A stretch of 64,000 bases of DNA from NCBI GenBank assembly GCA_937922655.1, contig CALAJH010000011.1, positions 62,001 through 126,000 on the forward strand, read 5' to 3'. The DNA comes from an uncultured Bacteroidia bacterium. GTDB lineage: Bacteria > Bacteroidota > Bacteroidia > J057 > CALAJH01. The position numbers were made by a program, and so were the translations under genes. Of this stretch, positions 8,643 through 60,350 are shown piece after piece (within the stretch, counting starts at the first letter, position 1; each line of letters begins with the position of its first letter). A model generated the notes under the pieces. It did no database searches. It was given only the letters and a program-made list of their open reading frames with translations, and had not been told where the DNA came from.

Positions 8643-8675
8643 CAAATTTATGACAGAAAATCGTACGAAAACAAA
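8643..8675 (-). promoter_or_regulatory. promoter for the TonB receptor (-33 TTTG and -7 TAAATTTG)
   Basis: Minus-strand TTTG at 8675-8672 and TAAATTTG at 8650-8643, 21 bases apart, which fits the Bacteroidota promoter layout. The box is 45 bases before the ATG. I saw no riboswitch-like structure in the 8598-8828 leader and spacer. Confidence 0.65.
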
Positions 8676-8828: not shown

Positions 8829-10040
8829 TTATTGTTGTTTTTCGTCCAAATCCAACGCTTGAACGCCCGTAGGTACGGGAGGCGGGGGCGGCGCTTCGGA
8901 AGTTTTGAAACTGATGACGGGCATAACGTCGACCTCGTCCAAATCCTCGTCGTAGGGTTCGTAAACGTTGTCGGCGAACTCGCTGCCCAACAAAAATCCG
9001 TAAGGCTGAAGCTCGTCGACGTGGTCGAAGACGACCTTGACCATCGCCAACATGGGTATGGCCAATATCATGCCCGCCACCCCCCAAATCATTTGTCCGA
9101 CGAACAGGGCCGTCATCGCCGCCATCGGGTTGATTTTTACTTTGTTGCCGACGATGCTCGGCGTTATCAAGTTGCTTTCGAGTACTTGGGTCAATCCGAA
9201 AACCACCGCCACCCCCACGAAATACCACCCCGAATCCTTGGTTACCACCGTAACCAACAACGTTAATATAAACCCCGTTGCCAAGCCGATATACGGCACC
9301 ACCACCAACATCCCCGACAAAAAACCCAATAGTACCGCATATTTGATGCCCAGTATCGTCAGCCCCAGCGTTATTATCGAACCAATGATGACCACTACGG
9401 TAAACAGCCCCACGACGTAATTTTGAGCGAGTTTTTCGATGTTGCGCACCACGCGTCGAAACGTTCGACTGCGGTTTTCGGGCGTTACAAGAATGAAAAA
9501 CTTATGAAACGATCTTCGATACAACAAAAAGAAAAAAGCAAAAACCAGACTCAAACCTATGGTCAGCATCAACCCCGTCGTTTTTTCAAAAGCCACTCCA
9601 ATGAGGGCGCCGGCGCCGTGTGAGGCCTCCGTCAATTCAAACTGTAACAGCTCGTCAACGTAACCGGGGTCGAGGTTGAGTTTGTCGACCGCCACCTCGT
9701 TGATTTTTTCCTTCGAGCTATTGACGATGTACGTGAATCTTTGGCGTAAAAGCGGCGCCTCGCTCGCGAACCCCGAAAACTGCATCGAAAAAAACGTCGC
9801 TATCGAACCGAAGGAAACGATAAGCCCCAAAAGCGCCAACACCACCGCCGCTATGGAAGGTATGCGCCACTTTTCCATACGTTTGACCGCCGGCAACAAC
9901 AACATCGCCAATATCAACGCGACACAAAGCGGTATCAGCACCGAGGCCGCCAACCACAACGTCAGTATTATCAGGCCCAAAAATTGCATTACGAACACCG
10001 CGCGCATATAGACGGGCATTCGCTCAAACCACTGTTTCAT
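8829..10040 (-). CDS. AI-2E family transporter (PF01594), YdiK/PerM-like permease
   Basis: 403 residues with about eight hydrophobic segments, in the pattern of the AI-2E transporter family: two or three helices at the start (YMRAVFVMQFLGLIILTLWLA), a soluble insert, and a C-terminal membrane block (LGFLSGMLVVVPYIGLATGFI, GQMIWGVAGMILAIPMLAMVKV). Members include an autoinducer-2 exporter and Na+(Li+)/H+ antiporters, so the substrate is open. The ATG at 10040 overlaps the mqnB stop by four bases (ATGA), so translation is probably coupled to mqnB. A longer frame from 10076 is rejected because it runs into mqnB. The C-terminal tail is acidic and proline-rich. Confidence 0.88.
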   Translation of the reverse strand: MKQWFERMPVYMRAVFVMQFLGLIILTLWLAASVLIPLCVALILAMLLLPAVKRMEKWRIPSIAAVVLALLGLIVSFGSIATFFSMQFSGFASEAPLLRQRFTYIVNSSKEKINEVAVDKLNLDPGYVDELLQFELTEASHGAGALIGVAFEKTTGLMLTIGLSLVFAFFFLLYRRSFHKFFILVTPENRSRTFRRVVRNIEKLAQNYVVGLFTVVVIIGSIITLGLTILGIKYAVLLGFLSGMLVVVPYIGLATGFILTLLVTVVTKDSGWYFVGVAVVFGLTQVLESNLITPSIVGNKVKINPMAAMTALFVGQMIWGVAGMILAIPMLAMVKVVFDHVDELQPYGFLLGSEFADNVYEPYDEDLDEVDVMPVISFKTSEAPPPPPVPTGVQALDLDEKQQ

Positions 10041-10696
10041 CGCTTCAAATTTAGTTCGTCTTCCAAAATTCGCCACAAAAAAATATTCATGTTTTCAATG
10101 GCGGGGCGAATTTTCCACATCGAAACGTTGCGCGGCGCCACAACGTTGGACACGGCGCGAAACGCCCAAAAATTCGTCTCGTGCCATAACGCCGATTGAA
10201 AAAACGCCGCGCCCTCCATGGTCTCCAAATCGGCGGCGAACTTTTTACAACGCAACGCTATGGTATTCTGCGTTCCCGAACAGGTTTGCACCGTCAATCC
10301 CGCGGCCGAACGAACTTTACCGTACGGCCGGGGATTGACGAAAACGTCTTGGGGCCGGTCGGAAAGCGGAAAACCGATTTCGGCGGCGGTCATGAAGCCG
10401 TCGGGCGTTTCGGCGCCGACGTCGCCGTAACGCTCGGAGACCACCTCCCAAATTCCGCCCAACTCCGCCTTCCCGTCGTAGGCCCCCGCAATACCGATAT
10501 TTATCCACAAATCGCATCTGTCGTCTTTTTGTGCAAAAAAAGCGGTTTTTAGCGCCGTGTTTGCCGCCCCCACTCCCGTTATCCATACCGAAATCGAACC
10601 GTTGCCGTAACCCCATGGCGTTTTTGGCAACGCGTAACGTTCAATCGTCGGCAAGGCCTCCAATTCCGTTGCCGCCACAACCGCGATTCTTTTCAC
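10037..10696 (-). CDS. mqnB: futalosine hydrolase
   Basis: 219 residues of the nucleoside phosphorylase/MTAN fold. Visible family motifs are VVAATELEA at the N-terminus, ITGVGAANTALKT, INIGIAGAY, and the purine/ribose site METMEGAAFFQSA (here LETMEGAAFFQSA) followed by FRAVSNVVAPRN. MqnB cleaves futalosine to dehypoxanthine futalosine and hypoxanthine in the alternative menaquinone pathway. A plain MTA/SAH nucleosidase is the main alternative; the FRAVSN..R ending favours MqnB. The start is a GTG at 10696, two bases after the adhesin stop at 10699; the longer frame reaching back to 10819 would lie inside the adhesin gene. No other mqn gene is in the window. Confidence 0.85.
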   Translation of the reverse strand: MKRIAVVAATELEALPTIERYALPKTPWGYGNGSISVWITGVGAANTALKTAFFAQKDDRCDLWINIGIAGAYDGKAELGGIWEVVSERYGDVGAETPDGFMTAAEIGFPLSDRPQDVFVNPRPYGKVRSAAGLTVQTCSGTQNTIALRCKKFAADLETMEGAAFFQSALWHETNFWAFRAVSNVVAPRNVSMWKIRPAIENMNIFLWRILEDELNLKR

Positions 10697-10698
10697 CG

Positions 10699-13600
10699 TT
10701 AGCGAATAATCGTTATCGTTCCGACGCGATACGCTTCCATGCCGGAAAACGTCGTCGCCGTATACTTGTAAACGAACACGCCTTCGGGAACGGGTTGATT
10801 CAGATACGTACCGTCCCAACGGATGGTTTCCAACAAGCCGTCAATCTCTTGCAAATAGACGCGGTGTCCCCAACGCCCGTAAATTTCCACTTTTTGTTTT
10901 TTCATCGACGGGGCGAAAATCGTCCATTCGTCGTTGACGCCGTCGCCGTTGGGGGAAAAGGCGTTGGGAATGGCGATGCTCATGCTGTCCGCGGCGCCGA
11001 TAATCGTGTACGTTCTTGACGTTTGGCCCCGGCATCCCGCATCGTTGGTGGCGGTGAGCGTTACGGTATATACGCCCGGAAGCAGAAATTGTTTTTTGGG
11101 GTGGGTTTCGTTGGAGGTCGAACCGTCGCCGAAGTCCCACGAGTAGGTGTTTTCGCCGCGCGTCAGATTTTCAAATTCTATGAGGGCCGCGCCTACGGCC
11201 AAGGTTTCCGCCGTCGGTGCAAAGGCGGCTCGGGGTTCGGAACGAATAAAAAACACGGACTCCGTACCACAGTCGCGCCTTTCATCCGCCCAATGGCGCA
11301 AAACGTGCCGTCCGTTGTTGAGGCTCGAAAGGTCGACGGCGTTTTGGGAAAGACGTTTTCCGTCGAGTTCCCAAAAGCCGGCGCCGGGGTCGGGCAAAGA
11401 AATCGTTCCCGCGTCTTGTCGGCAAACGTTGGAAATCGGAAAACGCAAGGCTTCGGTAACGGTGATTTTGACCTCGTCGCGACAAGGGCCGTAAGTATAG
11501 GCGAGCGTGTAAGTTCCCGGTTGTCCGACGAGCGCGTAATCGAAGTACGCCGCACCGTTGGAGAGCATGAGTCCGGGCCCCGTCCATTGACCGCCTTGGG
11601 GTTGTCCCGTACCGAGGAAAAGCGGCGAGCTTCGACCGTTTTCGACGCAAAGTTGTCGGTCGTCGCCCGCGCGGGCGAATCCCCCGCCCAATAAAACGTC
11701 GCTTTTGCGCACGCAACCGTAAGCGTCGGTTACGGTCAATTCGTAACGTCCGGGCGCGAGGCCGTTGGCCGTAGGGGCGTCCAAATTCGGATTGTGGCTC
11801 CAAACGAAACTGTAAGGCGTTGCGCCGCCCGTAACGTTGAAGGTAACGGAGCCGTCGCGGTCGCCTTCGCAGGTCTCGGGTTTGAGGCTTCCGGGGGTTA
11901 CGGTCAGTTCGTCGGCCTCGCCAATGACGAAGCCGAACACCGTTTCGCATCCGTTGGCGTCGCGTACGGGAACGGAATAATTTCCACCCGAAAGATTGAC
12001 GAGCGTATCGACCTCTTGGCCGCGCCGAAGCGTGCCGGCAAAAAAGACCCGATACGGATTTCCTTCGGCAAAAGGCGTTCCGCCCGTAATCCTGAAAGCG
12101 ACGTAACCGTTCTTTTCCCCTGCGCAACGCACGGCTTTCGTCGAAACGGTCAAGGCTTCGAGCGCCGGCGGTTCGGACAAAGAAAATATCGGCCCCGAAA
12201 CCCGACAGCCCGCGCTGTCCACGACGATAACCCGTACTTGGGGCGCGGCCGCCAATTGCGAAAACACAAACGTCGTTTGCAAGGGCGCACCCGCAACGTA
12301 ATCGTCGTTGATTCCTTCCAACAGCACCCGATAAGGCCGCGTTCCGCCCGAAACGCTCACCGTAATTCTACCCGAATTGTCGTCGAAACATTTGAGGTCT
12401 TGTCGGTCGGTTTCAAACAACAAGGGGGGACGGCTGCGCAACAAAACAACGAGTTCCTGCGTAACGCCGCAATTCAAAGCGTCCCGCACCCACAATCGAT
12501 ATTCGCCCGCCGGCAGATTGGGAAACGAATCCACGGCCGTATAGTCGATGTTTATCGGCACGTCCACGCCTTGCAGGCGATATTCGTAGGGCGGGGTTCC
12601 GCCGCCGCCTTGCGGGAATATCACGCCCGAATTGTCCCCCGCGCAAAAGACTTCGCGTGTAAACGCCCGTAAATACAGGACGGTGTCCGGACCGTCAAAG
12701 TTGATGGTCGCCGTCGTTCGACAACCGTTCGCATCCATAAAATAATAAACGTATTCTTGGCCGATGTCCAAACCGGTTACGTCGGTGGGATTGACGAAAT
12801 CTTGAAAATCGACGCCGTTGGCGGAAAAACGAAAAGGAGGGGTTCCATAGAATCCGTCGGGGTCGTCGGGGTCGGGACGGACGGACAATCGAATGCGTCC
12901 TTGCGCCTGACCTCGGCATCGGGGCGCCTCCAAAGTTTGGACCACCGCCTGAATGGGACGTTCGGGGTCGGTCAAAACAAATTCTTGAACGACGACGCAT
13001 CCGTAAGCGTCGGCCACGCGCACCGAATACGTGCCCGCCGCCAAATTCGAATACGTAACCGTCGTCCCCGATTGGGAAACGCCGCCGTCGAGTTGAAACG
13101 AATAGGGCGGCAAGCCGTTGGAAACCCCTACGCTTATAGAGCCGTCCGAACCGCCCGGACACGTCGGCGTAACAAAAGAAAACACGGGATTGAGCGGTTC
13201 GTCGGGCGGGGTCATGGCAAACGGGCGCGAGGTGGTACATTGCGCCGCGTCCGCCACAAAGAATAAGTAATTTCCCGCCGGAACGGGATCGAAAATATTC
13301 GAGGCTTGGAAAGTTGTGCCGTTGGACGAATATCGAAACGGCGGCGTTCCACCCGAAACGACCACCCGTATCCGTCCGTCACCCGCAATGACTCCGTTTT
13401 CATCGGGACAACCCGCAAAACGTTCGATAACGAAATTAAACGTCGGTGGGCCGGGTTGAAGGCTGTCCACTTGCGCCGCCGTCGTCAGTTCGCATCCCGC
13501 CGCGTCGCGAACGACGAAAACATACGAACCATAAGCCAAGTTCGTAAACACGTTCGAGGTTTGAAACGCCGGCGCACCCGTTTGAAGGGCGTATTGATAA

Positions 13601-15789
13601 GGGGGATTGCCGCCCGTGGCGTCGACGCGTACGGCGCCGTTTTGGGTACAGGAAACGAGTTGGGTGACGGTTGCGGCAACGGTCAAAGCGTTGGCCGGCG
13701 GCCCAACGTTGAAATTGACGCTTACGGTGCAACCGACGCGGTCTCTGACGACGACGCCGTGCGCCCCGATGGCCAGATTCGAGAAGTTGGGCGTGGAAAC
13801 GAACGCGCCGCCGTCGAGCGAATATTCGTAGGGGATAATGCCTCCGGAGGCGACAATGGACACGCTACCCGTACCGCCGGAACAGACGGCGTTGGCAACG
13901 TTTGCGGTGGCGGCCAAGTCGGTGGGGACGAAGGCGACGGTCAAGTTGAGGGTTTCTGCGCAACCGTTGGCGTCGCGGGCGGTGAGCGTATAACTTCCGG
14001 GCGCCAATCCGGTGAAAAGCCCGGTTGTATTGCTTGTACCGGGGGAAAGGATAAACGTGTGGGGCGTTTGTCCGGAATTGACGGCGGCGGAAATTTCGCC
14101 GTTGTTGCCGCAGGAGGCATTGACAACGACGGCCGTGGGCGCCGCATACTCGTAGTTGTAGGTTTGCGCGGCGGACAATTGGGATTCGCAACCGCGCTGG
14201 TCGCGTACGCGAAAGGTATGCAAACCGGGGGTCAATCCCGTAAAAACGGGATTGGTTTGAAAACTTCCGCCGTCCACGGAATATTCCAAGGGGGGCGAAC
14301 CACCCGTGGCAACGGCGGTAATGTTTCCGACGGGGTTTTGGGGACAAGGGTGCGGGGTTACGACGAGCGTTAATGCGGGCGGTCCGCCGACGGCCGACGA
14401 TTGTGGAAATTGGTAATTGAAGCGGGAAAGGCCGTTTTGTCCCGGAGCGGCGCCGTGTTCGGGGGCGTTGTTCAAAAGACAGGTGGCGGCGTTGTTAATG
14501 GGGTCTTCGGAAAGGACGTTAATGCCGTTTTGTCCGCCGGCGACGTTGATGACGACGGTCGGAGGGGCGTTGGGGGAAGAGAGGGCGACAACGCCGCCGC
14601 CGCCGCCGCCGCCCGGCCCCATACATCGGGTGTTGTCGTGCCAGACGTCTCCACCTTTGCCGCCGCGGGCGTTGAGCGTAAGATTTTGGACGTTGGGGCA
14701 AACGATGAAAATACCGCCGCCGCCGCCGCCGCCGCCCGCGCCCTCGTAATAAGTTACGGGTGCGGAAAAACCGTTGGCGGAAACGGAGCGATTGTTGCCG
14801 TCGATGGCGCCGGCACGAATGAAAACGAGTCCGCCGCCGTTGCGTCCGGAGGGTTGGCCGTCGAGGTTGCCGTTGTCGGAGTAGTTGTTGATTTCTCCGC
14901 TTCCGCCGCCGCCGCCAAGAAAAACGCGGCTCAGGCCGGCGCCAAGAAAGGATTGAAGCGAGCGGCCGCCTTCGCCGCCCAGCGCCGCGCCGGCGCCGCA
15001 ACCGTTGGAAGAGTTGATGTTTCCGCCGCGTCCGGCTTGGGCGAAACCGCCGCCGCCGCCGCCGCCGCCGTTGTGTCGATTGCCGCCGCCGCCGCCGTTG
15101 GCCATGGCGCCGCGCGCGCGAATGTCCTCGCCGAAATGCGCCGCCCCTTCCCCTTTACGACCCGCCACAAACTGCATGTCGTACTCCTCGGGTTGGGAGG
15201 CCATAAAAAAACCGTAGGGCAAACCCAAAAACGGACAAACATTGTGATCCATGGGCGTAACGGCGCCGCCGCGAAAGCCTTTTCCCGAAACGTCCACGTT
15301 CGCCGCAAACGTCAGCGTTCCTTCGACCTCCAAAGCCAAAACGCCGCCCGTAACGCCGTTCCATTCCGCCGCCGTCAGTGTCCCGTTTATCACCACGTCC
15401 CCCGAATATTTCGGTACGTATATCATTTGCACCAAGTCGGCGGGAGTGTAAGAATTCAAAAGCTGATAAGCCAAAGTAACGACGTTGCCGGAGACCGACA
15501 AAACTTCGGAAAATTCGTAGAGTCCCGTGTTGTTTACCGCCGTAATCGAACCAAACTCAACGGGGTCGGTGTGCGAAGAAGGCTGACTGCGGTTTATGGT
15601 CAAGCCTTTCATTTGAATGATGAGCACGCGGTCGCCGGGCGCGACTATCGAACCGTTTTCAACCGTTACCTGCGATAGACAATAATCGAAATCCACCACG
15701 GGCGTGTAACGATTGACGACGCCGGAAACGGGGTTCTGGGCCGGCACCGCTGCCGCCGTAAAAATCCAAAATATAAATCCCCTCAACAT
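10699..15789 (-). CDS. giant T9SS-secreted adhesin with SprB repeats, PKD domain and type B sorting domain
   Basis: 1696 residues from the ATG at 15789, which gives a short signal peptide (MLRGFIFWIFTAAAVPAQ). Order of parts: an N-terminal beta-rich region; a block very rich in glycine (runs of up to nine Gly, coded near 14580-15090); about 11 SprB-type repeats of 65-80 residues, each with a Cys near its start and a VRDxxGC ending (for example ISVGVSNGLPP..VRVADAYGC); a PKD domain (YSWDFGDGSTSNETHP); and a C-terminal gliding-motility-associated sorting domain (NAFSPNGDGVNDEW..GRWGHRVY..PVPEGVFVYKY). Such proteins are exported by T9SS and displayed on the surface, as SprB is in gliding Flavobacteria. 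An adhesin role is inferred. mqnB follows after two bases. Confidence 0.93.
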   Translation of the reverse strand: MLRGFIFWIFTAAAVPAQNPVSGVVNRYTPVVDFDYCLSQVTVENGSIVAPGDRVLIIQMKGLTINRSQPSSHTDPVEFGSITAVNNTGLYEFSEVLSVSGNVVTLAYQLLNSYTPADLVQMIYVPKYSGDVVINGTLTAAEWNGVTGGVLALEVEGTLTFAANVDVSGKGFRGGAVTPMDHNVCPFLGLPYGFFMASQPEEYDMQFVAGRKGEGAAHFGEDIRARGAMANGGGGGNRHNGGGGGGGGFAQAGRGGNINSSNGCGAGAALGGEGGRSLQSFLGAGLSRVFLGGGGGSGEINNYSDNGNLDGQPSGRNGGGLVFIRAGAIDGNNRSVSANGFSAPVTYYEGAGGGGGGGGIFIVCPNVQNLTLNARGGKGGDVWHDNTRCMGPGGGGGGGVVALSSPNAPPTVVINVAGGQNGINVLSEDPINNAATCLLNNAPEHGAAPGQNGLSRFNYQFPQSSAVGGPPALTLVVTPHPCPQNPVGNITAVATGGSPPLEYSVDGGSFQTNPVFTGLTPGLHTFRVRDQRGCESQLSAAQTYNYEYAAPTAVVVNASCGNNGEISAAVNSGQTPHTFILSPGTSNTTGLFTGLAPGSYTLTARDANGCAETLNLTVAFVPTDLAATANVANAVCSGGTGSVSIVASGGIIPYEYSLDGGAFVSTPNFSNLAIGAHGVVVRDRVGCTVSVNFNVGPPANALTVAATVTQLVSCTQNGAVRVDATGGNPPYQYALQTGAPAFQTSNVFTNLAYGSYVFVVRDAAGCELTTAAQVDSLQPGPPTFNFVIERFAGCPDENGVIAGDGRIRVVVSGGTPPFRYSSNGTTFQASNIFDPVPAGNYLFFVADAAQCTTSRPFAMTPPDEPLNPVFSFVTPTCPGGSDGSISVGVSNGLPPYSFQLDGGVSQSGTTVTYSNLAAGTYSVRVADAYGCVVVQEFVLTDPERPIQAVVQTLEAPRCRGQAQGRIRLSVRPDPDDPDGFYGTPPFRFSANGVDFQDFVNPTDVTGLDIGQEYVYYFMDANGCRTTATINFDGPDTVLYLRAFTREVFCAGDNSGVIFPQGGGGTPPYEYRLQGVDVPINIDYTAVDSFPNLPAGEYRLWVRDALNCGVTQELVVLLRSRPPLLFETDRQDLKCFDDNSGRITVSVSGGTRPYRVLLEGINDDYVAGAPLQTTFVFSQLAAAPQVRVIVVDSAGCRVSGPIFSLSEPPALEALTVSTKAVRCAGEKNGYVAFRITGGTPFAEGNPYRVFFAGTLRRGQEVDTLVNLSGGNYSVPVRDANGCETVFGFVIGEADELTVTPGSLKPETCEGDRDGSVTFNVTGGATPYSFVWSHNPNLDAPTANGLAPGRYELTVTDAYGCVRKSDVLLGGGFARAGDDRQLCVENGRSSPLFLGTGQPQGGQWTGPGLMLSNGAAYFDYALVGQPGTYTLAYTYGPCRDEVKITVTEALRFPISNVCRQDAGTISLPDPGAGFWELDGKRLSQNAVDLSSLNNGRHVLRHWADERRDCGTESVFFIRSEPRAAFAPTAETLAVGAALIEFENLTRGENTYSWDFGDGSTSNETHPKKQFLLPGVYTVTLTATNDAGCRGQTSRTYTIIGAADSMSIAIPNAFSPNGDGVNDEWTIFAPSMKKQKVEIYGRWGHRVYLQEIDGLLETIRWDGTYLNQPVPEGVFVYKYTATTFSGMEAYRVGTITIIR
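14578..15090 (-). repeat. GGC-codon tracts encoding polyglycine in the adhesin
   Basis: At least three pure or nearly pure (GCC)n tracts on the plus strand, near 14588-14612, 14708-14737 and 15045-15085, are runs of GGC glycine codons in the minus-strand adhesin. A run of one codon is prone to replication slippage, which here would change loop length in steps of one residue without shifting frame. Confidence 0.8.
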
Positions 15790-15794
15790 ATATG

Positions 15795-15802
15795 CAAAGT
15801 TA
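15795..15802 (-). promoter_or_regulatory. TAnnTTTG -7 box only five bases from the adhesin ATG
   Basis: TAACTTTG on the minus strand followed by CATAT and the ATG. With transcription starting a few bases after the box, the mRNA would begin at or next to the start codon. Confidence 0.6.
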
Positions 15803-16359
15803 TATAAAACAATGGTATTTATTCGTGCTTTTTCGACGGACGGGGCAGAGTAAGGCCGTGAATAGCGACTTTTTCGGAAGGAACAAAAAACACGCAACAG
15901 GACCATTTCTTCGTCAATTGTCGAAGCCCGCCGTTTTCATTTTCATTGTTTCATTTTTTAAGACGGCCCGTTGAAAGCGGTTGTCGTCGCTTTTTGAAAT
16001 CCATTTACCATTGTGAAGCCCCTACGAGTCGGAAAACGATTGGGGCCCTTTTACCATTTTCAAAAAACTTACGGAACCATGCGTATAAACAAAAAATTAA
16101 AAAAATTATTGTTTTTTATTCTAAATTATTTGGTCTTGAAGCGCTTAACGGCAATTTCAATGTTTTTAATCAATTTTAATATAGAAATTGGAAGAAGGTC
16201 GAGATGAACCGATGCGTTCTTTTTTGATTTTTAAAACGGAATTTGCATCCATAAAAAGTACTTGCTCGGTGCAACCGAAAAAAAATGCGGGGAGGAGAAA
16301 GTAAAAATGTACGTGTTGTAGAAATCGTTAAATTTCGCCCGCAATCATAGTTGAGACGT
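15803..16359. other. AT-rich intergenic island between the adhesin and plsY
   Basis: About 560 bases with no supported gene. The middle (roughly 16080-16260) is much richer in A and T than the rest of the window. A 42-codon frame from an ATG at 16082 (MRINKKLKKLLFF, then hydrophobic and basic) exists but has no visible family. Just upstream of plsY, GGGGAGGAGAAAG at 16289-16301 looks like a strong ribosome binding site in front of a four-codon frame (ATG at 16307, TAG at 16319). I recognise no structured RNA here. Confidence 0.4.
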
Positions 16360-16995
16360 ATGGAAACGGCGATGGCAATGGTGGCGGCTTACGTCTTGGG
16401 TTCTTTGCCGCCCGCGATATGGATAAGCAGGTACTTTTACGGTTCGGATATACGCACGCACGGCAGCGGCAACGCCGGCAGCACGAATATGTACCGTGTT
16501 TACGGATTTAAGGCCGGTTTTGCGACGCAGTTGCTGGACGTGCTTAAAGGTTGGTTGGCGGCGATGCTTCCGGTGTGGTTCTTGGCTTTCGAGGGCTCCG
16601 AAAGCCGAACGGTTCAACAGCTTTTGTGCGGCGTGGCGGCGGTTGTCGGGCACGTCTACACCGTTTTTGCGGGGTTTAAAGGAGGAAAAGGGGTGAATAC
16701 TATATTGGGTATGATGTTGGCGATAGCTCCGGGCGCCTGCGGCGTGGGCGTGGCCGTGTTCGTGGTCGTGCTTTTGGTCTTTCAAATGGTTTCTTTGGCC
16801 TCGATGATTGCCGTTGGCTCTTTTCCCGTTTACGTTTTGCTGACCGACCCCGACAACCGTGTTTTGTTTGCGGTGGGCGTGGCGTTGTTTGTATACATCG
16901 TTTTTACCCACCGTACGAACCTGCGTCGTATGATGGCGGGCAAGGAATCGAAAGTGGATTTAATCGCCAAACTAAGGGGTAAAGCGAAAAAATAA
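16360..16995 (+). CDS. plsY: glycerol-3-phosphate acyltransferase (acyl-phosphate dependent)
   Basis: 211 residues, all hydrophobic helices plus the PlsY signatures: GSGNAGSTNMYRVYG (loop 1), FKGGKGVNT (loop 2) and THRTNLRRMMAGKE near the end. It transfers the acyl group from acyl-phosphate to glycerol-3-phosphate, the first step of phospholipid synthesis in the inner membrane. I take the ATG at 16360 as start; a TTG three codons earlier at 16351 is possible. nhaA begins 26 bases after its stop but has its own promoter box in the gap. Confidence 0.95.
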   Translation: METAMAMVAAYVLGSLPPAIWISRYFYGSDIRTHGSGNAGSTNMYRVYGFKAGFATQLLDVLKGWLAAMLPVWFLAFEGSESRTVQQLLCGVAAVVGHVYTVFAGFKGGKGVNTILGMMLAIAPGACGVGVAVFVVVLLVFQMVSLASMIAVGSFPVYVLLTDPDNRVLFAVGVALFVYIVFTHRTNLRRMMAGKESKVDLIAKLRGKAKK

Positions 16996-56564: not shown

Positions 56565-56939
56565 ATGGATAAAATGCGTCTGCTTATGGAGCTTGAGGCA
56601 GACTTTAAAAAGCTGGGAGAACTTTTTGCGGAATTGACCGAGCGGGCGATAGACGAGGGAATCAGTCGATTTCCTGTTTTTGTCGCGTCCCCGGGGCCGA
56701 TAGCCTTGGGTGTGGCCGTCGCCGCGCCCGCCACGCATTCCGTGTTCAAATTTTATTTCATGACGACGGTCGAAGAATTGGCCCGAAAAAAAGTCATTGT
56801 GGACGCGGCGGCGTTCAAAAAAGCTTTTCGCAACCCGCTGGAAAACGCATGTATCATCATCGTCGCCGAAGAACCGCAACTGATATTCATCCCTTACCGC
56901 GAGCCGAGCTTTGAGTTCGAACCCGTTTCGTTAAATTAG
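56565..56939 (+). CDS. hypothetical protein, 124 residues
   Basis: Soluble, mixed alpha/beta protein without signal peptide. It opens with an amphipathic helix (MDKMRLLMELEADFKKLGELFAEL) and later has RFPVFVASPGPIALGV and ACIIIVAEEPQLIFIPYREPSFEFEPVSLN. The pattern looks like a small conserved Bacteroidota family. No catalytic motif is visible. It ends nine bases inside the convergent cyclase gene. Confidence 0.7.
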   Translation: MDKMRLLMELEADFKKLGELFAELTERAIDEGISRFPVFVASPGPIALGVAVAAPATHSVFKFYFMTTVEELARKKVIVDAAAFKKAFRNPLENACIIIVAEEPQLIFIPYREPSFEFEPVSLN

Positions 56940-57680
56940 TTTAAACGTCGAAAGGGGATAAAGCACGGGCTTGGACGGGGCGGCGTCGGCCATGAAGGGC
57001 GCAATTTGCAAATTCAAGGCGTATAATCCGTCGGAAACATCCTGCGGAACAAATATAAACTCGGTAATGGTGCGTTGGGATTTTGCCGATTCGATGCGTG
57101 AATCTTGGGGTAAATCCCAAAAAATGCGGTGGTTGGAAAGTTTACCGTCGTCGTCGGCCTTGTCCACCGAGGCAAAATCCACCAACACATGTTCAAAACC
57201 CGACCGGCGAATTAGACGCATGGCGTCGTTGGAAAAAAACGCGGAAAAGTCTCCGAAAGGCTCGTTTCGTGTCCGAACGGCAAGGGCGCGAATCCCGGAT
57301 TGAAAACCCGCGCGTTGCATCGCGGCGTGCAACGCATCCGCCGAAACGACTTTGTCGTCGGGAGAAAGACGGGGATAATATTCGTCGGAGGTTTGGCCGT
57401 CGGGTTCGACGCTTACGACAAGGCAGGTTGTCAAAAGCGGGATTTCGACGTCGCAAACGAATATTTTTTCGGCCGTCAAGTGACCGATGCATTCGGTGTG
57501 GGTGGCGTTGCAATGAGGGGTAAGGGTGTAGATTTCACAATTGCACGGGCCGCCTTCGGCCACCGAACCCACGAAACTTCCCGCACGGTACACTTGCGAT
57601 GTTGCCGCCGACGCTCCGAACGCCGATACCTGTTGTCCGCCAAAATCCAGCCGTATCGCCAACGAAGCGCCTTTTTGCAT
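56931..57680 (-). CDS. cyclase-family hydrolase, divergent kynurenine formamidase-like
   Basis: 249 residues. It resembles the metal-dependent cyclase family (PF04199), whose members include bacterial kynurenine formamidase. The metal site here reads H56-C-N-A-T-H61-T-E63-C-I-G-H67: Glu63 takes the place of the usual Asp in H-x-D, and the first His is shifted one residue. DLPQDSRIESAKS and VLVDFASVDK are also in family positions. Its ATG follows the stop of the second T9SS adhesin with no gap (TAA then ATG), so translation is coupled. Substrate unknown; other lactone- or amide-hydrolysing roles are possible. Confidence 0.75.
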   Translation of the reverse strand: MQKGASLAIRLDFGGQQVSAFGASAATSQVYRAGSFVGSVAEGGPCNCEIYTLTPHCNATHTECIGHLTAEKIFVCDVEIPLLTTCLVVSVEPDGQTSDEYYPRLSPDDKVVSADALHAAMQRAGFQSGIRALAVRTRNEPFGDFSAFFSNDAMRLIRRSGFEHVLVDFASVDKADDDGKLSNHRIFWDLPQDSRIESAKSQRTITEFIFVPQDVSDGLYALNLQIAPFMADAAPSKPVLYPLSTFKLI

Positions 57681-60350
57681 TTACCGTATCAATGTGATGC
57701 TTCCCGTGCGGTGAAGTTCTCGGTTCGAGCCGTAATAATCCGCGCTGAAAAGATATACGCCTTCGGGACAATCGGCGCCGCTGTCGTTTTTACCGTTCCA
57801 TTGTACGAAGTCTCCTTTACCGACATCGGATTTAATGGAATATACCCTTGTGCCCCAGCGTTCGTAAATCGAGACTTCGATTTTTTCGTAGCCTTCGGGA
57901 ATCGAAAAGGGAAATACGTCGTTGACGCCGTCGCCGTTGGGCGTAAAAACGTTGGGCAGCCCCGCGTGGACTTTTCGTCGCGGTTTGACCCGCACGCCGA
58001 TGGTGTCCGTGGTGGTGCAACCGTTGGCGTTCACGGCGGTAACGGTGTAAACGGCGCTGGCGACGGGCGTGGCGACGACGCTCGTTCCCGTCGAGTCGGA
58101 GAGCGTGTTCGACGGCCGCCAATAAAAGGCGACGGCGTTGCCCCGGGCTCGAAGGATTGTACCGTCACCTTCTTCGATTTCCGATTTTTCGCTTTCGAGC
58201 GTCAATTGGGGCGGCAAAACCACGGCGACGTCGACGGTCAGCGTTTCGGCGCACGCACCCGTAATGCATACGCATTGGTAGCTTTGGTCGGCGTCGGGGG
58301 AAAACAGGGCGGTGGCGCCGTCGTCGAAGACGGTCAGACTCGGGGCGGGAGTCCATTGGTAGCTTTGGGCGCCGGAGAGTTGTACGGTGGCCGTTTCCCC
58401 GCGACAAATGGTTTGCCGTCCTTCGGGATTTATCTTTACCCCCGGCAAAAGGGTGGCTTCGATGACGGCGTTTCCAATGCGTCCGCATCCGTCGCGTACG
58501 GTTAGCCGATAATTTCCGCCGACGCCGGTCGTCAAAGAGGCTTCGTTTCCAACCGACGTGCCATTGCGTTCCCACAGATATTCGACGGGTTCTTGGGCGC
58601 CCGTTACTTCGGCGACAAAAGTCGCCGTTCCCCCGCCGGGGCAAATGTCGGCTTGTGTCGGCGTAACGTTTACGCTCAACGGCGGCAAATCGCTTTCGGA
58701 TATCGTCAAACGAAATTCGAGTGAATCGCAACCGTTCGAGGCCCAAAATCCGTATTCTCCAAACGCCGAAACGGTTTGCGTCGGTCCGTAGGCGTTGGCA
58801 AAAGTCGTCGGTCCGAACCAACGATACCTTAATCCCGTAGCCGGCGTATAATTGACGACGCTCACGACCGCACCTTGCGAACAGAAGTCTTGCATGTTCA
58901 CGCCGATACCCAAATTGTCGGGAAGCGGGGCGGGCAAGGCAAGGGAGATGGGTTCGGAATCGGCAAAACCGCATTCGTTCGTGGAACGCGCAAAAACGGC
59001 GCCTGCGGTTGCTTCATCGAGAACGAGCGAATATTGCGTTCCGTTGGCCGCGGACGAATTGTTGTAAAACCATTCGACTTCCACGTTTGCGGTAAACACT
59101 ACCGTTTCGCCGGGGCAGGGTTGTGAAGGCGAAACGGAGATTTGGGGCGTTGAGGGCAAAGTACCGACGGTCAAGGTGCGGGTTTCGGACTCGGCTATGC
59201 AACCGTTGAGCGTTCGGGAAAAAGAATACGTTCCGGGGACGTCGGTTTCCCATTCGGGCGCGACGCCCAAGCTTTCGCCGTTCAAAAACCATTCGATTTC
59301 GCCTTCGGATTGGGCGGGGGTCAGTACCGCCGTTTCGCCCGGGCAAATGAAGGCATTGAACGGAGCCCATTCGGCCGTCGGCCTTTCGGGAACGCTAACG
59401 TCAATGTATTGAGTGGAGCCTTCGAGAAGGCTCTGACAGGCTCCGGATAAAAACAATCTGCGTCCGAAACGGTAAACGCCCGGTACGGTGGCGGTAAAGG
59501 TTACCCTTGCGGAATCGGGGTGGGGGGAAAGCTCGGGTTCCGTTGCACCCTCGGGAACCGAGACCGTAAACCACTGCCCCGAATACGGCGCAACGTTTGA
59601 GCCTCGCAAACGTACCGTTCCCTCGCAGGCATCCACCAACGACGAAAGAATATTGGGAATCGTGGGGGGAACGGGCGGCCTGCAATTGAGCAAGGCGGGG
59701 GTGGGGTTACCCGCCCAATCGAAAAGCACGGTTTCGCCGTCTATATTGGAGAGCGTGTTTGAGATATAGGATACTTCGTCGCAACATTCGGGGGTGGGAC
59801 AAAAACGAAAGACACGGGGATTGGGATTGCCGGAGTTGGAGAAACGGCCTTGTTCGGATGTGTTGCTTGCGTACATGAGGTATACGGTATCCATGAGCCC
59901 CGAGAAATCGAGGGCGTCGGCGGAAAAAAGGGCGCTGGTTACAAGAATGACCCGGGCGCCGGCGGGGAGGGTGTAAGGAGGGGTAAGTTGGTCGGACACT
60001 TCGACAATTGCGGCGCAATCGGGATACTGCAAATTTGCCCGCCATTGGTCGACAACGCTTCCGGTATAAGCGGTGGGTGGGACGAGGTGGTTGGCGTTGT
60101 TGGGAAAATTGATAATCGGCGTTTGGGAGAGATAAGCCGGCGACAAATCAATGGATTCGGAGCCGACGCGCATAAACACCATTTCGTTCAAGCCTTCGGG
60201 TAGATTCTGACCGGTTTGAAGGTTGGGACAAGAATTGACCAAAATCGCTTCGACTTCAATGCATCCCGGTTCTTGCGCCTTTGTCGTCGCCCATGACCAC
60301 GGCGCAAGAACCGCTCCCAATAAAATAACAAGTTTTGCCCGGCTCTTCAT
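57681..60350 (-). CDS. T9SS-secreted adhesin-like protein with type B sorting domain
   Basis: 889 residues. Signal peptide MKSRAKLVILLGAVLAPWSWATTKAQ. The first 200 residues have a lamin-tail-like or similar domain (EVEAILVNSCPN..LNEMVFMRVGSES). Several Ig-like modules follow with repeats such as ICPGETAVLTPAQSEGEIEWFLNGE and PCPGETVVFTANVEVEWFYNN. The C-terminus is the gliding-motility-associated sorting domain (LPNVFTPNGDGVNDVFPF..ERWGTRVYS..PEGVYLFSADYYG). It should be surface-displayed or released by T9SS. Unlike the giant adhesin it has no SprB repeats. The cyclase gene abuts its stop. Confidence 0.9.
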   Translation of the reverse strand: MKSRAKLVILLGAVLAPWSWATTKAQEPGCIEVEAILVNSCPNLQTGQNLPEGLNEMVFMRVGSESIDLSPAYLSQTPIINFPNNANHLVPPTAYTGSVVDQWRANLQYPDCAAIVEVSDQLTPPYTLPAGARVILVTSALFSADALDFSGLMDTVYLMYASNTSEQGRFSNSGNPNPRVFRFCPTPECCDEVSYISNTLSNIDGETVLFDWAGNPTPALLNCRPPVPPTIPNILSSLVDACEGTVRLRGSNVAPYSGQWFTVSVPEGATEPELSPHPDSARVTFTATVPGVYRFGRRLFLSGACQSLLEGSTQYIDVSVPERPTAEWAPFNAFICPGETAVLTPAQSEGEIEWFLNGESLGVAPEWETDVPGTYSFSRTLNGCIAESETRTLTVGTLPSTPQISVSPSQPCPGETVVFTANVEVEWFYNNSSAANGTQYSLVLDEATAGAVFARSTNECGFADSEPISLALPAPLPDNLGIGVNMQDFCSQGAVVSVVNYTPATGLRYRWFGPTTFANAYGPTQTVSAFGEYGFWASNGCDSLEFRLTISESDLPPLSVNVTPTQADICPGGGTATFVAEVTGAQEPVEYLWERNGTSVGNEASLTTGVGGNYRLTVRDGCGRIGNAVIEATLLPGVKINPEGRQTICRGETATVQLSGAQSYQWTPAPSLTVFDDGATALFSPDADQSYQCVCITGACAETLTVDVAVVLPPQLTLESEKSEIEEGDGTILRARGNAVAFYWRPSNTLSDSTGTSVVATPVASAVYTVTAVNANGCTTTDTIGVRVKPRRKVHAGLPNVFTPNGDGVNDVFPFSIPEGYEKIEVSIYERWGTRVYSIKSDVGKGDFVQWNGKNDSGADCPEGVYLFSADYYGSNRELHRTGSITLIR

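Follow-up and report, generated by a model that had tools for sequence, protein, structure and literature searches.

A T9SS type-B adhesin gene tightly followed by mqnB in an uncultured Bacteroidia bacterium: a probable lineage-specific pairing

Three described systems come close to the locus reported here: the SprB/SprF type-B units of Flavobacterium johnsoniae, the mqnB genes of Bacteroidota in their usual surroundings, and the sigma-ABfr promoters of Bacteroidota, for which the consensus TAnnTTTG is quoted in PMC7366714. The locus lies in a stretch of 64,000 nucleotides from an uncultured Bacteroidia bacterium (contig CALAJH010000011.1), referred to below as the window.

As in the SprB/SprF units, the adhesin of the window has SprB repeats and a type-B CTD, and three type-B genes of the same genome are followed by tightly spaced PorP/SprF genes. 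Unlike those units, the window adhesin gene is followed by mqnB and a PF01594 permease gene without PorP/SprF, and upstream of it lies a divergent PF02660 gene; the adjacent PorP/SprF gene of an SprB-like gliding adhesin is therefore lacking. The mqnB gene resembles its usual Bacteroidota counterparts in belonging to the futalosine route and in being present as a single copy in the genome, but neither a PTPS/queD-like gene nor mqnD adjoins it. The putative promoter element TAACTTTG directly before the adhesin gene is like the sigma-ABfr promoters. By contrast, the profile built from the boxes of this genome showed no conspicuous −33 element. No report of an adhesin-mqnB pairing was found in the literature searched, the adhesin/menaquinone topic included.

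Gene layout and predicted products

The adhesin, mqnB, and permease genes follow one another on the minus strand (Table 1). Two nucleotides separate the adhesin stop codon TAA (10701-10699) from the mqnB GTG (10696-10694), and the mqnB stop codon TGA (10039-10037) overlaps the permease ATG (10040-10038) within the sequence ATGA. Both junctions are exactly, to the base, as described in the initial annotation.

Table 1. Positions of genes and promoter-like elements around the adhesin-mqnB junction
Feature	Position in window	Strand	Basis or remark
T9SS type-B adhesin, 1,696 aa	10699..15789	−	Pfam and TIGR04131 matches
mqnB, futalosine hydrolase, 219 aa, GTG start	10037..10696	−	TIGR03664, PF01048, alignment with 9 homologues
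AI-2E family (PF01594) membrane permease	8829..10040	−	Pfam match
PF02660 gene upstream of adhesin	16351..16995		Divergent from adhesin
Bacteroidota −7 box TAACTTTG	15795..15802	−	Ends 5 nt before adhesin ATG; 15.4 bits, partly circular
Possible separate −7 box TAAATTTG	10046..10053	−	5 nt before permease ATG; 8.5 bits, may be chance
TAAATTTG box before TonB-dependent receptor gene	8643..8650	−	13.5 bits

The ATG at 15789 was preferred as the adhesin start over that of the longest ORF (15906) because a signal-peptide-like stretch, MLRGFIFWIFTAAAVPAQ, recognized by reading of the residues without a predictor, opens there and because the −7 box ends just before it. From this start, the protein comprises an AgmC-N-like glycine-rich N-terminus, SprB repeats, a PKD domain, and a CHU_C/TIGR04131 sorting domain, with Pfam matches to SprB (PF13573, 167.5 bits), PKD_4, and CHU_C (PF13585, 53 bits). 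Among the 150 of 288 candidates scored, at least eight SprB stretches had E ≤ 0.001, and at least five were over the cut-off. TIGR04131 matched residues 1606-1680 with 45.5 bits (cut-off, 35), and it is through this type-B CTD that the adhesin is predicted to be exported by the T9SS. The match to the AgmC N-terminal domain model NF047640 reached 187.8 bits, where the cut-off is 275. The AgmC-N-like domain occupies window positions 14530-15720 (minus strand); such domains were found in 24 of the 40 genomes searched, the genome of the window included (where four genes carry it), and outside the window they often lie within frames of ∼640 aa.

The G+C content of the adhesin gene (0.587) was the highest of the nine local genes measured. 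At third codon positions, GC3 was 0.658 for the adhesin and 0.632 for mqnB, within a local range of 0.526-0.705. Recent horizontal gain of the adhesin was considered and rejected, given that GC3 was not deviant, though G+C was at the upper end; blastn revealed no plasmid relatives.

MqnB matched the futalosine hydrolase model TIGR03664 with 128.1 bits, just over the cut-off of 124.7, and also PF01048. It retains the residues E-x-M-E-x-A-A and S-N, which do not vary across a ten-row alignment, and futalosine hydrolase activity is predicted for it; searches against solved structures returned one weak match (5dk6, E 1.7e-4). The GTG start falls within the column range of the homologue starts, which is soft support because four of the ten rows had been trimmed by eye to an inner Met. 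The AI-2E transporter family PF01594 matched the permease with 168.6 bits, and we know of no link between permeases of this family and quinones.

The rest of the futalosine pathway is present in the genome. MqnC is encoded on C12 (435.8 bits; cut-off, 428.1) and MqnE on C65 (463 bits; cut-off, 434.55), and there are two PF02621 genes, one on C1 and one on C74, neither of which matches any NCBIfam model; from their N-termini, we take the former to be MqnA and the latter to be MqnD. The C74 gene shares 4 bp with the end of a penicillin-binding-protein gene. The futalosine genes thus lie dispersed over the genome, next to genes unrelated to them. On C1, the PF02621 gene (L179, G000:C1:150624-154752) is divergent from a T9SS gene that is itself followed by PorP/SprF, and a single opposite-strand gene separates mqnC from a T9SS gene (L193, G000:C12:97260-101681), so that, with mqnB, three futalosine genes sit near T9SS cargo genes. 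This proximity of the mqnA-like gene and mqnC to T9SS genes is curious, was noticed post hoc, and is compatible with chance in a genome with 30 T9SS type-B genes among an estimated total of roughly 2,470.

Promoter boxes and the probable transcription unit

The −7 box TANNTTTG, the Bacteroidota consensus as it appears in PMC7366714, was used for a scan of gene starts. A scan with the sigma-70 consensus was set aside as ill-suited to Bacteroidota. Genes were called in ∼660 kb of the genome, with starts taken from a home-made codon caller (that of mqnB was corrected), and two of the C12 stretches counted (L170 and L183) overlap by ∼5 kb. With these definitions, TANNTTTG was counted for a gene when it ended no more than 40 nt before the start. 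This held for 46 of the 118 genes whose neighbour is divergent and for 48 of the 126 same-strand genes preceded by a gap of >50 nt. Among same-strand genes with shorter gaps, the counts were 5 of 26 at 11-50 nt and, at ≤10 nt, 2 of 110. About 60% of the promoter-needing genes here have no exact TANNTTTG within 40 nt.

A promoter profile was trained on the exact TANNTTTG boxes before promoter-needing genes of the genome, and any exact box scores well with it; the 15.4 bits of the adhesin box are partly circular because this box was probably in the training set. For mqnB, the profile gave −9.5 in the 60 nt before the start, and the best value within 300 nt was 7.3 bits, 155 nt upstream. A pattern scan of minus-strand positions 10054-15794 found no exact TANNTTTG. 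No convincing promoter-like site was thus found within the adhesin gene, where an independent mqnB promoter, coupled with recent insertion of the adhesin, would have spoken against the initial annotation.

The presence of a −7 box before the adhesin and the absence of one close before mqnB make shared transcription of the two genes likely, and the sequence suggests that adhesin, mqnB, and permease probably constitute one transcription unit. The earlier proposal of a single unit is supported in this respect by the 2-nt gap, the ATGA overlap, and the strong box at its head, with co-transcription itself deduced from these features. Given that ∼60% of promoter-needing genes do without an exact box, mqnB may have a promoter of its own, and co-transcription is favoured rather than proven. 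The candidate box before the permease lies inside the 3′ end of mqnB, and such a box is rare before tightly packed genes (2/110). Further downstream, the TAAATTTG box before the TonB-dependent receptor gene likely marks the start of a separate unit.

Gene order in relatives and tight pairs within the genome

mqnB was searched for in 22 genomes of the order, including that of the window, which is the sole member of its family among them, and was present in 21. The 100 other mqnB loci compared derive from 80 named contigs and 20 relatives; 17 of the 20 relatives belong to the order, these being the order genomes with mqnB that were compared with their context (from the 20 available besides that of the window, G004, G015, and G020 were left out). 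At least three of the 100 loci are duplicates (L111, L121, and L139 repeat L078, L077, and L075, respectively), and six offer <1 kb upstream of mqnB, L165 only 51 nt.

The comparison with related Bacteroidota, proposed in the initial annotation, showed the pairing to be hardly conserved: a type-B adhesin lies directly upstream of mqnB in 1 of the 100 loci (G010), and a type-A T9SS protein does so in one (G002). A scan of upstream C-termini covered 74 members, three duplicates having been dropped and 24 loci also falling outside because the 400 nt before mqnB contained no end of a same-strand ORF of 60 codons. TIGR04131 and CHU_C were each found in 2 of the 74, the window included; with a local CTD profile, antisense matches sometimes scored above true ones.

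In G010, which belongs to another family of the order, the adhesin directly before mqnB (L080, G010:C126:1-9000) is a 1,306-aa frame with IgGFc-binding, PKD, SprB, and CHU_C domains and an N-terminus that differs from that of the window adhesin. A copy of TAACTTTG overlaps its stop codon, ahead of the mqnB GTG, and by this position may provide G010 mqnB with its own promoter. In an order-wide search, the C-terminus of the window adhesin matched a G010 gene on C36 with 101.7 bits and the mqnB-linked gene on C126 with 88.4 bits; orthology of the two adhesin-mqnB pairs was rejected because the C36 gene outscores that on C126. In a search of a smaller set, from which the window's own locus (L052) was absent, the best match of the window CTD was the mqnB-linked adhesin of G010 (85.1 bits). 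The type-A protein of G002 lies ∼75 nt upstream of mqnB (TIGR04183, 58.5 bits; cut-off, 23).

With any similarity to any part of the window adhesin counted, a similar stretch was detected in the compared flanking DNA of 10 of the 100 mqnB loci, directly upstream and on the same strand in two (G010 and G002) and 2.0-6.3 kb away, on either side, in eight. On the basis of G010, G002, and these adhesin-like stretches, there may be a weak real association between adhesins and mqnB. A divergent PTPS/queD-like gene (PF01242 query) lies within 300 nt of mqnB in 41 of the 100 loci, and an mqnD-like gene lies within 300 nt downstream in 40. At E 1e-6, none of the 100 loci yielded a relative of the window permease. 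Neither PorP/SprF nor mqnB was found within the 1.5-kb flanks of 29 C-terminal homologues of the adhesin, a result obtained with a single PorP query and without a positive control.

Within the genome, TIGR04131 gave 30 matches, of which 27 exceeded the cut-off. For 8 of these 30 T9SS type-B genes, a same-strand gene starts −4 to +5 nt from the stop codon; the followers are PorP/SprF in three cases and, in one case each, a thiolase, chorismate synthase, a GTPase-like protein (DO-GTPase2-like, PF19993, below its cut-off), Cyclase, and mqnB. For the background, 304 kb of the genome was used, in blocks (the window among them) that had not been selected for the presence of adhesins; there, a same-strand gene follows at the same spacing for 51 of the 210 genes. 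The frequency for type-B genes was not beyond chance (Fisher p = 0.82), the two counts having used slightly different start rules. The adhesin-mqnB pairing is thus not special within this genome, where tight pairs with unrelated genes occur at the background rate. Given that about a quarter of the genes examined are tightly followed, finding a surface-protein gene hard against the gene of a metabolic enzyme constitutes weak evidence of shared function.

The cyclase-like case is also in the window, where a T9SS type-B gene at 57681-60350 is followed without a gap by a PF04199 gene at 56931-57680 (minus strand). In the chorismate synthase pair, the T9SS type-B gene overlaps aroC by one base (stop/start) at approximately record position 185270 (L175, G000:C11:178997-192269). 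This pair was not found in 20 other aroC-bearing genomes of the order, as judged from flanks of ≤1.5 kb.

Origin and meaning of the pairing

With gene families, junctions, box positions, and non-conservation in the sampled relatives as observed, we regard it as highly probable that the three genes make up an ordinary compact operon specific to this lineage, the pairing being a local accident without functional coupling. They would be transcribed from the −7 box that ends 5 nt before the adhesin ATG. The adhesin would leave the cell via the T9SS through its type-B CTD, MqnB would cleave futalosine in the cytoplasm for menaquinone synthesis, and the permease would handle cargo unrelated to the other two products. 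The pairing would have arisen when genes were rearranged in this lineage, whose genome is densely packed and often has T9SS cargo genes standing directly before unrelated genes. No functional coupling of adhesin and quinone need then be assumed, although the absence of a link is something that we infer. It is unlikely that the adhesin was instead recently inserted upstream of an mqnB gene that continues to be expressed from a promoter of its own, located within the 3′ end of the adhesin gene. Such an event would fit a gene order not shared with the relatives examined, the high G+C of the adhesin, and an N-terminal domain that is multi-copy and widespread (four genes; 24 of 40 genomes), as expected of a shuffled family, but the strand between the adhesin and permease boxes holds no exact TANNTTTG, the best-scoring site before mqnB is 155 nt away, and the GC3 values of both genes are ordinary for the region.

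The initial annotation had suggested that the arrangement ties quinone supply to surface display. Adhesin transcription would then set the supply of MqnB, and the menaquinone-based proton motive force for T9SS secretion and gliding would rise with surface display. The tight junction and single strong promoter box agree with this proposal, as do the second adhesin-mqnB pair in G010, the type-A protein before mqnB in G002, and the positions of mqnC and of the PF02621 gene read as mqnA relative to T9SS genes. We nevertheless find the proposal unsupported and consider it very unlikely: a type-B adhesin directly precedes mqnB in a single one of the 100 other loci, equally tight pairs with thiolase, chorismate synthase, and other unrelated genes occur at the background rate, the mqnB-linked adhesin of G010 is not the best match in that genome, and MqnB is predicted to catalyze a single step of the futalosine route, the remaining genes of which are located elsewhere. 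Slightly less credible still, and in our judgement likewise very improbable, is a general form in which T9SS adhesin genes of this lineage lead the transcription units of chorismate/menaquinone-route enzymes, such that quinone synthesis and proton motive force rise with surface display. The cases behind it are adhesin-mqnB, adhesin-aroC, the adhesin/porP genes divergent from the mqnA-like gene, and mqnC one gene away from an adhesin.

Were a link of this kind real, the locus would give genetic access to the way in which T9SS bacteria adjust their energy supply to the traffic at their surface. As an ordinary compact operon, its main value lies in the caution that it urges on reading function from tight junctions in a densely packed genome.
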